This document shows positions 40,759-59,035 of a stretch of 64,000 nt of DNA, piece by piece. The notes beneath the pieces are model-generated. The model ran no database searches. It was not told the origin of the DNA and saw only the letters and a list, made by a program, of their open reading frames with translations. The position numbers and the translations under genes were made by a program. Every line of letters begins with the position of its first letter. Positions within the stretch are counted from its first letter, which is position 1. Source of the stretch: Chelatococcus reniformis (GTDB taxonomy: Bacteria; Pseudomonadota; Alphaproteobacteria; Rhizobiales; Beijerinckiaceae); assembly GCF_014640075.1 (NCBI RefSeq), contig NZ_BMGG01000001.1, positions 992,001 through 1,056,000 on the forward strand, in the 5' to 3' direction.

Positions 40759-41694
40759 TCACGCCCCGCGCAGCAGCGCGCCGTCGGCGGCGATGCGCCG
40801 CTCGAAGAAGCGCAGGACGGCGCGGACGCGGGAGATGTGCAGCAGATCCTCGTGCACCGATATCCAGATGTCGCGGACCGTGAAGATCTCCGGCAGCACC
40901 GGGATCAGGGCCTTATCGTGCGCCGCGACGAAGGAGGGCAGCATGACGATTCCCTGCCCCGCCATGGCGCTCATGTACTGGGCCAGCAGGCTGGTGGAGC
41001 GGAAGACGACGCTGGTTGGCCGCAGGATATCGGAGAGCCAGAGATTCTCCTTGATGTGGACATGCTCGTCGATGAAGTCGATGAAATCGTGCTTGTCGAG
41101 GTCGGCGAGACTGCGCGGCGGCCCCCTGGTCTGCAGGTAGGCGGGGGATGCGAACAGCGAGACCTTGAATTCTCCAACCTTGCTGGTGCTGAGGCGGCGG
41201 CCGCGTGGGTTGAAGAAGCTGACGAAGATGTCGGCTTCCCGCCGGCTCAGGTCGAGGATGCGGCTATCGGTGATCAGCTCGATCTGGATTGCCGGCTGCA
41301 GGCGGTTGAAGTCGGCGATGCAGCGGGTGAGATAGAAGCTGCCGATGCCCTCCAGGCTCGCGACCCGCACGGCTCCGCCGGCCTCCGCGCCGAGCCCGAT
41401 GGCCTCCGCGATCAGGTTGGCCTGGTTCTCCATGCCCTCGGCATACTGGAGCAGGCGGTGCCCCTCCTCGGTGAGCGTGAAGCCATGCTTGCTGCGGTTG
41501 AACAACGTGCAGCCCAGGTTCCGCTCGAGCTCCCGGATCCGCCGGCCGACGGTCGTATGGTCCACCTTGAGCGCGGTGGCGGCGCGGACGAGATTTCGCT
41601 GCCGCGCCAGCTCCAGGAAATAGACGATGTCGTTCCAGTCGTATCTTGGCTTCGATGACGGGCTCACGGAGGTCTCGGGCGGCGCAATTGACAT
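40759..41694 (-). CDS. LysR-family transcriptional regulator
   Basis: A 311-residue regulator. The winged HTH (about 18-75) includes NLVRAATALKVDHTTVGRRIRELE; the effector domain follows from about 95. It resembles regulators of the ArgP/NocR-like subgroup only generally. It lies downstream of the nitrilase-transporter operon on the same strand and probably controls it, though LysR genes are more often divergent. ATG 41694 is preferred over a GTG at 41727. The inducer is unknown. Confidence 0.88.
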   Translation of the reverse strand: MSIAPPETSVSPSSKPRYDWNDIVYFLELARQRNLVRAATALKVDHTTVGRRIRELERNLGCTLFNRSKHGFTLTEEGHRLLQYAEGMENQANLIAEAIGLGAEAGGAVRVASLEGIGSFYLTRCIADFNRLQPAIQIELITDSRILDLSRREADIFVSFFNPRGRRLSTSKVGEFKVSLFASPAYLQTRGPPRSLADLDKHDFIDFIDEHVHIKENLWLSDILRPTSVVFRSTSLLAQYMSAMAGQGIVMLPSFVAAHDKALIPVLPEIFTVRDIWISVHEDLLHISRVRAVLRFFERRIAADGALLRGA

Positions 41695-41771
41695 GACCAA
41701 TCTACCCGTTCCGGTGGGGGCAGCCACCCGCCGTCGCGGCGGCAGGTGGCTGTGCGCGCCCAGAGCGCTGC

Positions 41772-41835: not shown

Positions 41836-41941
41836 CTAGACCATTTCCGCGTTTCTGCGAATCGCCGAAGTGCTCTATCTGTTTGATTTAGTGCGTTTTC
41901 TTCACGCGAACCGGCGTCCACTTCGCTCGAAAACGCGCTAG
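41836..41941. repeat. CTAG-bounded palindromic element, copy 2
   Basis: CTAG tetranucleotides lie at 41836-41839 and 41938-41941. The inner stem has arms GCGTTTTC (41893-41900) and GAAAACGC (41929-41936) around CCGGCGTCCACTT. It is nearly identical in its right half to the copy at 58968-59035. The right CTAG provides the TAG stop codon of the nitrilase gene. Confidence 0.75.
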
Positions 41942-43611
41942 GCCGCCACGAGCGGCGCGTAGGTCTGTGTGAGGCGGTTGGCGAACATGTCCACCTTCGG
42001 GATCATCAGCTTCTGCCGGCACAGCGCCAGGTCGATGTGCTTGGGCATGACAGCGCCCATCTTCAGGCTGCGCGGCGCCACGACGTTGATGTCCCAGTGC
42101 GGGAAGCCGTTCGGCGGAATGACCACGCTGCCGCCGGGGTAGGCGCAGTCGACCCGGTTGGAGAGCACGATGGCGACCCGGTTGTCCTCCGCCCGGGGCA
42201 CGGCCAGCAACTCGCGCTCGAACGGCTCGCGCAAGGCCGCGGGCCACAGAATGATGTCGGCCGCCGCCACGCCCAGGCAGCGCGAGGTCTCGGGGAAGAC
42301 GGCGTCGTAGCCGGACATGACGCCGATGCGGCCGAACGGCGTCTCGAACACCGGATAGGTGTCGCCCGCGGTGGCCCAGGGGCGCTCCTCGGCCGTCAGG
42401 TGAGTCTTGCGGTAGCGGCCGATCTCGCCCCCGTCCGGCCCGATGAGCAGGGTCGTGACATACAGCCGGCCATCGGCCGCCTCGACGCCCGGCAGGGCGA
42501 TCAGGCTGCCATAGCGCCGCGCGATGGCGGCGGCGCGCAGCGCGTGCGCCGGCGTCTGCGCCGCGAGCGCCCGCGCCACCGCCGCGTTCGGCAGCCAGGA
42601 GGTGCAGAAGGCGTATTCCGGTAGCGTGATGACCTTCACGCCGAGCTTGGCGGTGTGGTCCATCATGTCGAACACGTCGTCGGCGGACGTATCGGCCGCC
42701 ACATGCATCTGGACGGCCGCCACCTTCGCCGTAGACTGCGACGGGATCAGCGGTTTGTCGGCGATGCGGTAGACCGGCGTCGCCTCATAGGGGGCGGCGA
42801 GAATGCCGTAGGTATCGGGGCGACGGTCGGCGATCTTGTCGTTCGCGGCGTAAATCGACTTGTCGCCGGCCAGCGCCGGATCGACGTCCGCGATCGCCAG
42901 GCCGTGCGTGTCGTAGGGAACCTTCGACAAGACGCGGCCGCGCGGGTCCACGATCATGCTGCCGCCGGGATAGTAGATGGAGCGCTCGTAGCCGGATTTG
43001 GTCGCCGCGACGAGCCAGACACCGTTCTCGTAGGCGCGGGCGGGGCCCCACATGTCCGCCTGGTCCATGGCGAAGAAGTTCGCCATGTCGACGATCACCT
43101 CGGCACCCTGCATGGCCATCGAGCGGAAGATCTCGGGGATGCGGCCGTCGAAGCAGATGAGCAGGCCGATGCGCCCGAGGTCGGTGTCGACCACCGGGCA
43201 GCCGCGCTCGCCGAATTCGAACCAGTTCTGATCGTGCGTGGCCAGGAACTGCTTGTGGTAGTGGCACGCGACTTCGCCGTTGCGTCCGAACATGACGCCG
43301 CTGTTGAAGATCTTCGATTTGGCGGCATCCCATTCGGTGATGCCGCTGGCGATGTAGACGCCGTGCTCGCGGGCCATCTGCGCCAGGGCGCTCACGAAGC
43401 GGCCGTCGGGGACGGTCTCGGCCAGGTCCCGGCAGTGCGCCGGCGAGTCGAACAGATAGCCGGTGTCCATGCACTCGGGGAACACGATGAGTTCCGCCTG
43501 CTGCCGCACGGCGTCCTCGACGTAGGCGCGGGCAATGGCGATGTTGTGGTCGAGGTCGCCGAGGCGCGCGAGTGTCTGCACGGCCGCGGCGCGGAAGCGT
43601 CGCTTCGTCAT
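41938..43611 (-). CDS. Tandem-domain carbon-nitrogen hydrolase (nitrilase superfamily)
   Basis: A 557-residue protein with two nitrilase-fold domains in one chain. Domain 1 (about 5-270) keeps the catalytic triad: Glu46 (VFPECMDTG), Lys120 (HYHKQFLA) and Cys153 (LLICFDGRIPE). Domain 2 (about 292-545) keeps Glu332 (TLPEYAF) and Lys402 (YRKTHLT), but the cysteine position is Gly434 (VMSGYDAVFPE), so it should not be catalytic. The genes upstream encode an ABC importer. It probably hydrolyses an imported nitrile, amide or carbamoyl compound; the substrate is unknown. The TAG stop is inside a repeat. Confidence 0.88.
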   Translation of the reverse strand: MTKRRFRAAAVQTLARLGDLDHNIAIARAYVEDAVRQQAELIVFPECMDTGYLFDSPAHCRDLAETVPDGRFVSALAQMAREHGVYIASGITEWDAAKSKIFNSGVMFGRNGEVACHYHKQFLATHDQNWFEFGERGCPVVDTDLGRIGLLICFDGRIPEIFRSMAMQGAEVIVDMANFFAMDQADMWGPARAYENGVWLVAATKSGYERSIYYPGGSMIVDPRGRVLSKVPYDTHGLAIADVDPALAGDKSIYAANDKIADRRPDTYGILAAPYEATPVYRIADKPLIPSQSTAKVAAVQMHVAADTSADDVFDMMDHTAKLGVKVITLPEYAFCTSWLPNAAVARALAAQTPAHALRAAAIARRYGSLIALPGVEAADGRLYVTTLLIGPDGGEIGRYRKTHLTAEERPWATAGDTYPVFETPFGRIGVMSGYDAVFPETSRCLGVAAADIILWPAALREPFERELLAVPRAEDNRVAIVLSNRVDCAYPGGSVVIPPNGFPHWDINVVAPRSLKMGAVMPKHIDLALCRQKLMIPKVDMFANRLTQTYAPLVAA

Positions 43612-43651: not shown

Positions 43652-44470
43652 CTATTCGCCTTTGACCTGGCGCCAGAACACATCCAGGCAATGGCGCTTC
43701 AGGCCGGTGAAGCGTTCGCTCGTCGTAACCGCGGCGGTACGGGGCCACGCCAGGTCCACGTCGACGATCTCCGCCACCCGTGTCGGCCGCCGCGTCAGCA
43801 GCAATACCTTGTCGGCGAGCTGGATCGCCTCCTCCAGATCGTGCGAGACGAGCAGCATGGTCGTGCGCGTCTTCATGAAGATCTTCTGCAGCTGTTCGCG
43901 CATGAACAGCGTCATCTCGTAGTCGAGGGCCGAAAACGGCTCGTCCAGAAACAGCACTTCCGGCGAGGTGACCAGGGCCCGCAGGATCGAAACCGTCTGC
44001 TGCTGCCCGCCCGAGAGCGTATAGGGATAGGCGTTGAGGTCGATCTTGACCTCGAACTCCGCCAGCAGGTTGTCCACGCGGGCCCTTCGTTCGGCGGCAG
44101 GCACGCCCATGACCTTGAGCGGGTAGTGGATGTTGTCGATGGCCCGCAGCCATGGAAACAGCGCTTCGCGGTAGTTCTGGAAGACGTAGGAGATGCGGGT
44201 CTCCTGAATGGTCTGGCCATCGTAGAGCACCTCGCCGGCATCCATCGGGGCAAGGCCGGAGATCATATTGATCAGGGTGCTCTTGCCGCAGCCGTTCGGA
44301 CCGAAGATCGAGATGAACCGGCCCTGCGGCAGGTCGAGCGAGAAGTCCTTGTAGATCGTCGATCCGCCGAACGTCTTGTCGAGTCCCCGGATGGTGATCA
44401 GGCGCGTGCGCCCCGAGCTGCGCGGGCTGACGACGTCGGCCCCGGCCACCCCTTGTCGAGGCGCATGCAT
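43652..44470 (-). CDS. NitT/TauT-type ABC transporter ATPase
   Basis: A 272-residue ATPase of the nitrate/sulfonate/bicarbonate (NrtD/SsuB/TauB) group. It has Walker A GPNGCGKST, signature LSGGQQQTV, Walker B VLFLDEPFSALD and H-loop LVSHDLEEAI. The gene is 13 bases after the binding-protein gene and 40 bases before the nitrilase gene, so the four form one operon. It energises uptake by the adjacent permease. Confidence 0.94.
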   Translation of the reverse strand: MHAPRQGVAGADVVSPRSSGRTRLITIRGLDKTFGGSTIYKDFSLDLPQGRFISIFGPNGCGKSTLINMISGLAPMDAGEVLYDGQTIQETRISYVFQNYREALFPWLRAIDNIHYPLKVMGVPAAERRARVDNLLAEFEVKIDLNAYPYTLSGGQQQTVSILRALVTSPEVLFLDEPFSALDYEMTLFMREQLQKIFMKTRTTMLLVSHDLEEAIQLADKVLLLTRRPTRVAEIVDVDLAWPRTAAVTTSERFTGLKRHCLDVFWRQVKGE

Positions 44471-45499: not shown

Positions 45500-46279
45500 T
45501 CAGCGACCGGACCAGTGGATGACGGATTTCTCGACGAGCAGGAGAAGCAGGTTCAGCCCGTAGCCCATGACCCCGGTGGCGACGATCGAGCCGTACATGT
45601 CCGTGAGGTTGTAGGAGATCTGCGCGTCGATGATGCGATGGCCGAGCCCGTCGGAGGCGCCGATGAACATCTCGGCGACGATGATCACCACCAGCGCAAT
45701 CGACACGGCGGTTCGCAGGCCGACGAAGGTTTGCGGCAGCGTCTCGAAGAAGGTGACGTCGCGGAACACACGCAGCGACGATGCGCCCATGGAGCGCGCC
45801 GCGAGGATGCGTGTCTGGCGCGCATTCAACACGCCGTAGGCCACGTTGAAGACGAGGACGAGCCAGGCGGCAAACGCCGCGACGGCAATCTTGGCCGGAT
45901 CGCCCAGCCCGAACAGCAGGAGGAAGAGCGGAAAGAGCGCCGTCGCCGGGGTGGAGCGGAAGAAGTCGATTAAGAACTCGACCGACCGGTAGACGGAGGC
46001 GTTGGCGCCGAGCGCGATGCCGGCCGGGACGCCCGCCGCGACGGCGATAAGGATCGAGTAGCCGACCCGCATCAAGGTCGCGCCAAAGTCCACGCCGAGG
46101 CGTCCGGACTGAATATTTTTGACGGTATCGGCGATCGTAAGAAAAGGCGACGGCAGCAGGTCGCTGTTTACAGCGCCGGTCGCGTAGGCGACCCACCATG
46201 CCGCCACGAGCAACACGGGACCGGCTGCATATTGCAGCGTTCGCGCTGCGGTATCCCTGCTCAAGCTTTGCGACATCAT
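45500..46279 (-). CDS. NitT/TauT-type ABC permease
   Basis: A 259-residue inner-membrane permease with about six helices and the EAA loop in SMGASSLRVFRDVTFFETLPQTFVGLR. The VVIIVAEMFIGASDGLGHRI segment is typical of SsuC/TauC. It is the first gene of the operon, followed by binding protein, ATPase and nitrilase. Two methionines begin the frame (MM), and either may be used. Confidence 0.93.
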   Translation of the reverse strand: MMSQSLSRDTAARTLQYAAGPVLLVAAWWVAYATGAVNSDLLPSPFLTIADTVKNIQSGRLGVDFGATLMRVGYSILIAVAAGVPAGIALGANASVYRSVEFLIDFFRSTPATALFPLFLLLFGLGDPAKIAVAAFAAWLVLVFNVAYGVLNARQTRILAARSMGASSLRVFRDVTFFETLPQTFVGLRTAVSIALVVIIVAEMFIGASDGLGHRIIDAQISYNLTDMYGSIVATGVMGYGLNLLLLLVEKSVIHWSGR

Positions 46280-58967: not shown

Positions 58968-59035
58968 CTAGATCATTTGTTTGGTCGCGTTTTCTTCACG
59001 CGAACCGGCGTCCACTTCGCTCGAAGACGCGCTAG
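58968..59035. repeat. CTAG-bounded palindromic element, copy 3
   Basis: A 68-bp element with CTAG at 58968-58971 and 59032-59035. The stem arms are GCGTTTTC (58987-58994) and GAAGACGC (59023-59030) around CCGGCGTCCACTT. It shares about 36 nearly identical bases with the element at 41836-41941. Its right CTAG supplies the TAG stop codon of truB. Confidence 0.78.

Follow-up and report, generated by a model that had tools for sequence, protein, structure and literature searches.

A tandem nitrilase-fold protein of Chelatococcus reniformis and its relatives that may join an active half to a cysteine-less partner half

Enzymes of the nitrilase superfamily are thought to need a dimer for activity. 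Among the systems closest to the protein described here are the Pyrococcus amidase/nitrilase PH0642 (1j31, 6ypa) and other amidases with a single PF00795 domain, which we take to be homodimers carrying the full Cys-Glu-Glu-Lys set. That tetrad is given as the catalytic set of the superfamily in the accessible part of PMC6637149, and members of the superfamily pair across the A-surface, with one crystal-structure exception, according to the accessible part of PMC4700190 (dimers also in PMC6637149). AguB and N-carbamoyl-D-amino-acid hydrolase belong to the same superfamily. In receptor tyrosine phosphatases, an active domain (D1) is fused to an inactive copy (D2), as the available text of PMC7320164 describes. 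Their fold and chemistry are unrelated to those of the protein studied here, and the likeness is one of analogy only.

The cyanuric acid pathway has been described as AtzD-AtzG-AtzE-AtzH-AtzF (PMC6219798, available portion). The portions of the papers on this pathway and on the biuret pathway that were available (PMC6219798; BiuH, PMC5806882) describe no nitrilase-fold step, and a role in either for the present protein, which we call NIT, would be putative. The word "nitrilase" is absent from the main text of a paper on triuret (PMC7948467), and the accessible part of PMC12625717 names nitrilases separately from the biuret route. We found nothing in the open PubMed Central literature that describes a tandem nitrilase protein in which one half is Cys-less; the sole match for "tandem nitrilase" was a plant auxin paper. 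The literature on guanylurea and on Rhodopseudomonas nitrogen regulation gave no direct lead to NIT.

NIT is encoded within the window, the whole stretch of 64,000 nucleotides of C. reniformis contig NZ_BMGG01000001.1 that was analyzed (Table 1). Its 557-residue reading frame has no internal stop. Pfam model PF00795 (CN_hydrolase) matched two stretches of the protein, with a total of 272.9 bits, and when the halves were scored apart, both domain 1 (187.4 bits) and domain 2 (89.9 bits) passed the cut-off of 23.2 bits. Together with the translation (E at 46, K at 120 and C at 153; E at 332, K at 402 and G at 434), these matches confirmed the tandem nitrilase-fold protein, and all six of the residues, named in a first-pass annotation of this DNA. 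The best NCBIfam match of NIT, the archaeal nitrilase equivalog NF040852, did not reach its cut-off (252.3 bits, cut-off 500), and the match to TIGR03381 (AguB, N-carbamoylputrescine amidase) was also weak (166.2 bits, below the cut-off of 410.25).

Table 1. NIT, its domains and tetrad codons, and the adjoining genes (coordinates within the window).
Feature	Coordinates	Strand	Basis or remark
ABC transporter permease (BPD_transp_1)	45500-46279	(-)	profile and synteny
Periplasmic substrate-binding protein, NMT1/THI5-like, 329 aa	44484-45473	(-)	ATG of MLKLAPLL, start by eye
ABC transporter ATPase (ABC_tran)	43652-44470	(-)	partial nitrate/taurine-type model matches, none over cut-off
NIT, tandem nitrilase-fold protein	41938-43611	(-)	ORF, Pfam and alignment
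Domain 1, residues 1-280, presumed catalytic	42772-43611	(-)	nearest solved structures: PH0642/6ypa amidase, nitrilase 3ivz
Glu46 codon, domain 1	43474-43476	(-)	
Lys120 codon, domain 1	43252-43254	(-)	
Asp127 codon, fourth (Glu) tetrad place, domain 1	43231-43233	(-)	
Cys153 codon, nucleophile, domain 1	43153-43155	(-)	
Domain 2, residues 281-557, nucleophile-less	41941-42771	(-)	modelled alone: nitrilase fold
Glu332 codon, domain 2	42616-42618	(-)	
Lys402 codon, domain 2	42406-42408	(-)	
Gly434 codon GGC, nucleophile position of domain 2	42312-42310	(-)	
LysR-family regulator, downstream of NIT	40759-41727	(-)	

The structure models agreed with the profile matches as to fold. The model of full-length NIT (pLDDT 73, pTM 0.52) was too weak for its interface to be read; it aligned to amidase 6ypa with a TM score of 0.86-0.88, normalised by target, over ~265 columns. 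Domain 2 modelled alone, from an alignment that also contained domain-1 rows, adopted a nitrilase fold (pTM 0.82) whose target-normalised TM score to 6ypa_D was 0.81. Against PH0642-type structures, TM scores on this scale thus reached 0.88 with domain 1 and 0.81 with domain 2, and domain 1 shares with these amidases both the fold and the Glu, Lys and Cys. The amidases are single-domain proteins, whereas NIT has two domains per chain, one of them Cys-less, and an Asp at the fourth tetrad place of domain 1. AguB and N-carbamoyl-D-amino-acid hydrolase were likewise structural matches and, unlike NIT, their solved chains are single-domain.

The first-pass annotation had presented Glu46, Lys120 and Cys153 as the catalytic set of domain 1. 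These residues stand, but the triad does not amount to a full set given the four-residue tetrad of the superfamily. Asp127 of NIT aligns with Glu120 of PH0642, the fourth tetrad residue, so domain 1 has the Cys, Glu and Lys with an Asp in the remaining place and is not quite canonical. The Asp was found in 40/40 rows of the branch of close relatives (the window branch), compared to Glu in all 13 rows of more distant tandem relatives. At the same place domain 2 has Glu409, so that in the window protein the Cys is the only tetrad residue missing from this half. A change from Glu to Asp at the fourth place is said to harm related amidases. As far as its sequence tells, domain 1 behaves like a nitrilase-superfamily member with an altered tetrad, and Asp127 could mean that it is not a standard amidase. 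Asp127 is new beyond the first-pass annotation, as are the ABC-transporter genes, the ureide-catabolism neighbors in relatives and the second branch described below.

A scan of GTDB genomes identified 41 loci homologous to NIT that belong to the window branch (L010-L050), with identities of 53-82%. They lie in Bradyrhizobium, Rhodopseudomonas, Methylopila, Hansschlegelia, Rhodoplanes, Rhodobium, Pelagibius, Azospirillum and Nitrosomonas, and in MAGs labelled Alcanivorax, Chromatiales, Burkholderiales and others. None of 59 other genomes drawn from the same genus, family or order had a NIT match at 1e-60, which indicated a patchy distribution. A search of plasmids yielded a relative of 55% identity on an IncR plasmid of Klebsiella pneumoniae (L052). 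A second branch, about 27-35% identical, was found in Agrobacterium, Rhizobium, other Klebsiella plasmids and Thermomicrobium, and a lone tandem protein of Novosphingobium (L054) is a further distant relative. A first sample of the phylum, 398 genomes with the window's own included, held four window-branch and seven second-branch tandem proteins. No NIT relative was present in 58 pattern stretches of viral contigs.

Two of the genes are irregular. In one MAG (L021) the NIT frame ends after residue 411 while the match continues to query residue 553, so this copy is either broken or misassembled. On a Klebsiella quasipneumoniae plasmid (L073, 7986-10551), the second-branch tandem gene (531 aa) ends 1 base before an IS5-family transposase gene, and its domain 2 may have been shortened there.

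The division into one active-looking and one nucleophile-less half, also proposed in the first-pass annotation, was borne out and is kept across orthologues. The domain-1 Cys was present in all 54 rows reaching the site (41/41 in the window branch, 13/13 distant, the latter being 12 second-branch rows, one of them from Thermomicrobium, and the Novosphingobium protein). At the nucleophile position of domain 2, Gly occupied 40/41 window-branch rows, the window included, and 13/13 distant rows, and the sole other residue was an Asp in the K. pneumoniae plasmid protein L052. For these counts, the second copies L056, L057 and L058 (of L014, L010 and L019) were removed, the cut or broken L021, L043, L044, L049 and L050 were counted only where their sequence covers the site (L021 and L050 do not extend to the domain-2 position), and L051, a partly masked sequence matching at 32% along just a portion of the query, was excluded throughout. 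Cys was thus found in 0/54 rows, and the comparison that could have exposed Gly434 as a sporadic mutation or sequencing error instead ruled this out (Gly 53/54, Asp 1/54). That domain 2 might be a decaying half would be in keeping with its changing faster than domain 1. Such an account, with error or sporadic mutation, has a negligible probability in our estimate, given a Gly held through Pseudomonadota and Thermomicrobiota and the tree and substitution rates presented next.

A tree was built from 19 domain-1, 19 domain-2 and 11 single-domain rows, and all of its domain-2 rows fell into one clade (support 98/95; 98% of 200 bootstrap trees). The tree omitted 7/26 tandem proteins, as near-copies or for speed, and its single-domain rows exclude L003 and L007 (no tblastn match) and L067 (a near-copy). 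Long branches (L054, L074 and some single-domain rows) could have pulled the domain-2 rows together. The loss of the Cys from domain 2 was likely a single, ancient event. The domain-1 rows of the two branches were split in the free tree, but placing them in one clade was not rejected (p-AU 0.42), nor was a single clade of all tandem domains (p-AU 0.157). The topology tests are compatible both with a tandem that arose once and with an exchange of domain 1.

Domain 2 evolves faster than domain 1, as seen both in a comparison whose counts still contained the second copies L056, L057 and L058 and in substitution rates. The median dN/dS was 0.084 for domain 1 and 0.170 for domain 2 (148/253 pairs with dS of 0.1-1, from 23 closer loci that do not include the window). 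Both values are well under 1, and the medians indicated that domain 2 is under purifying selection, though less constrained than domain 1.

We then considered which parts of domain 2 are conserved. In the 42 window-branch rows, Glu332 was E in 39 (with D, Q and A once each), Lys402 was K in 40 and Q in two, and Glu409 was E in 39. This retention would be expected if domain 2 were a ligand-sensing pseudoenzyme that binds the substrate or product amide without turnover and modulates domain 1 by allostery. Crystal structures with bound amides exist for Cys-to-Ala mutants of related amidases (6ypa, 5ny7, 4izs), and human beta-ureidopropionase, a member of this superfamily, is activated by oligomerisation that orders its fourth-Glu loop (PMC10741476, accessible part). 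However, the conservation of the three residues was about the median among domain-2 columns, and all three were lost in L045 (Q/Q/V) and L052 (A/Q/T). In the distant rows Gln replaced the Lys in 3/13, and the fourth place held D, E or S. We consider ligand sensing rather unlikely. The average conservation of these leftover pocket residues and their loss in L045 and L052 leave regulation or substrate channelling, as raised in the first-pass annotation, without direct support.

The best-conserved stretch of domain 2 lies elsewhere. Segment 440-480 ranked 16th of 237 stretches of equal length in conservation, and segment 462-480 ranked 8th of 259, while segment 440-452 by itself was unexceptional (98/265 stretches as high). 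The domain-1 counterpart, 159-199, was not exceptional (86 of 240). These ranks come from 22 window-branch rows that are less than 90% alike, drawn from 41 full-length ones that still included the three second copies. By general nitrilase anatomy, segment 440-480 presumably holds the A-surface helices that build the dimer; it is also near the active site. As the best-conserved stretch falls in the presumed dimer helices rather than in the pocket, a role for domain 2 as a structural partner is favored over one as a ligand pocket, a preference that we hold moderately. A covalent pseudo-dimer, the arrangement named in the first-pass annotation, is plausible and is the reading that we prefer.

NIT follows the genes of an ABC transporter. 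The order on the minus strand is permease, binding protein, ATPase, NIT and then the LysR gene, and the ABC genes and NIT are presumed to form an operon. Homologues of the three ABC genes adjoin NIT in 38/39 loci with upstream sequence (L043 and L044 begin inside NIT and are outside the 39); the exception, with no ABC genes beside NIT, is Nitrosomonas nitrosa (L047). In L045 the order differs, being ATPase-permease-binding protein. A LysR homologue of at least 60% identity was near NIT in 34/41 loci, and some of the others are cut short. Scans near the genes for promoters, for a sigma-54 consensus pattern and with Rfam gave nothing above chance. A dispersed intergenic repeat of ~101 bp begins directly after the NIT stop (41837-41937, minus strand), with a core copy at 58991-59020 (minus strand); in the window's genome it occurs in at least 40 places at 92-100% identity (40 scored of 280 candidates).

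Ureide-catabolism genes were found close to NIT in some relatives. Allophanate hydrolase lies directly downstream of NIT in Pelagibius (L020), a Chromatiales MAG (L032) and Rhodobium (L041), at 740-800 bits (cut-off 511). L045 carries cyanuric acid amidohydrolase (AtzD; 536 bits, cut-off 360), AtzE in two ORFs and HpxZ/AtzH, and the stretch L093 of the same contig carries allophanate hydrolase and a second binding protein. A tblastn of these genes against the 41 loci (E 1e-15, at least 30% of the query) found them in no other locus, several loci being short, so that NIT was beside allophanate hydrolase or on an Atz contig in just 4/41 window-branch loci. In the second branch, acetamidase/formamidase adjoins NIT in 5/12 loci (L059-L063; PF03069 confirmed in 4/4 tested), and an Agrobacterium locus has urea-type ABC importer genes and an AmiR/ANTAR regulator. 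The tandem relative of Novosphingobium (L054, 2692-6685) lies beside two ORFs resembling hydantoinase A/B by eye, a hint of cyclic ureides.

Neighboring genes of another kind raise the question of whether domain 1, rather than being an amidase, is a nitrilase with a cyano compound as its substrate, which would be compatible with any reading of domain 2. On the Klebsiella IncR plasmid (L052), nitrile hydratase genes lie near NIT, as does a gene for a BiuH-like hydrolase (275 bits, below the cut-off of 370), and in Hansschlegelia beijingensis (L028, 11788-12303) a homologue of the nitrile hydratase alpha subunit (55% over 174 aa) is ~4 kb from NIT. The archaeal nitrilase model is also the best NCBIfam match, though under its cut-off. 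However, nitrile hydratase was near NIT at these two loci only, a glutaramide-bound amidase is among the nearest solved structures, and the allophanate hydrolase and AtzD/E/H neighbors suggest amides or ureides. We give a nitrilase function low credence. The conserved ABC row and the allophanate hydrolase and cyanuric acid gene neighbors point to a substrate that is probably a ureide or small amide.

The neighboring genes differ between the two branches and the tandem layout is constant, which bears on a further possibility: that two copies of domain 1 form an ordinary dimer and domain 2 is an added module that serves to build higher oligomers or to dock onto a partner, for example the ABC transporter or allophanate hydrolase. 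The low pTM of the full-length model and the near-constant company of the ABC genes would accord with an appended module. A layout that persists while its neighbors change does not, and neither does the place of segment 462-480 among the most conserved parts of domain 2, as expected if it packs on a nitrilase partner. An appended module is in our view improbable, and we continue to prefer domain 2 as the dimer partner of domain 1.

Genome-wide profiles gave a broader association. Allophanate hydrolase was identified in 38/39 genomes with NIT (the miss being MAG G475) compared to 54/299 genomes in another sample of the phylum. This is a strong contrast, with figures that are not corrected for kinship and a background that itself contains NIT genomes (the window's own and G150). 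Eight f26 genomes in the background have allophanate hydrolase, and none was among the no-match genomes listed. AtzD was found in 11 of the 39 NIT genomes, BiuH over cut-off in seven and a BiuH-like match at 1e-40 in 22. An obligatory role for NIT in the breakdown of cyanuric acid was rejected, AtzD being in just 11/39 and absent from the window's own genome. NIT as a simple replacement for BiuH was not generally supported either, since 7/39 genomes, again including the window's own, carry BiuH over cut-off as well. No BiuH-like match at 1e-40 was found in G458, G470, G479 or G481, the four genomes in which NIT adjoins allophanate hydrolase or shares a contig with Atz genes; this absence carries little weight because 13 other NIT genomes share it.

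Elsewhere in the window's genome, allophanate hydrolase forms a row with AtzE, a BiuH-like gene and AtzH on a second contig, and a third contig has BiuH over cut-off (C3:52653-53312, L096). With these genes present, biuret need not be the substrate of NIT. An ORF near the BiuH of L096 resembles a nucleoside-transporter-type binding protein by eye, and L096 is possibly a separate locus for biuret uptake and use. A MAG labelled Alcanivorax (G478; L095, 1-19001) has a dense group of ureide genes: allophanate hydrolase, AtzD, BiuH and BiuH-like matches were found by profile on one contig, with urea carboxylase-like, AtzE-like and AtzH-like ORFs and a single-domain nitrilase-family ORF recognized by eye.

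On balance we lean, if not strongly, to the view that NIT is a fused enzyme/pseudoenzyme pair for scavenging ureide or amide nitrogen, in which the dead half is chiefly a dimer partner; that domain 1 catalyses, that the halves pair in cis and that the substrate is of this class are all inferred. Domain 1 would be a cysteine amidase/carbamoylase. Domain 2 would be a nitrilase fold whose nucleophile was lost, most simply once and long ago, and which is kept mainly as a permanently attached partner providing the A-surface in cis, so that each chain would have one active and one silent site. The ABC importer would bring a small ureide or amide into the cell, domain 1 would free ammonia from it, and allophanate hydrolase would take up the product; the second-branch product would enter amide catabolism with acetamidase/formamidase. 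Biuret as the substrate fits the chemistry; hydrolysis of its amide gives allophanate and ammonia.

A bolder reading, and to us quite an unlikely one, is that NIT represents an undescribed, widespread fusion family in which the Cys-less half binds an amide and gates the Asp-variant active half, forming a nitrilase-fold entry to allophanate/ureide catabolism. If true, the gated fusion would be an analogue of BiuH or AtzE with a different ancestry.

In the homodimers of this superfamily, the role of the partner is inseparable from catalysis. The halves of NIT are unequal, with one silent site per chain, and because they are already unequal, what the partner contributes (structure, loop ordering or allostery) becomes testable by single mutations. 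The natural Glu-to-Asp change in the tetrad likewise offers an assayable effect on substrate choice. For the bacteria concerned, the NIT family may fill a gap in the account of how soil and wastewater bacteria use ureide and amide nitrogen.
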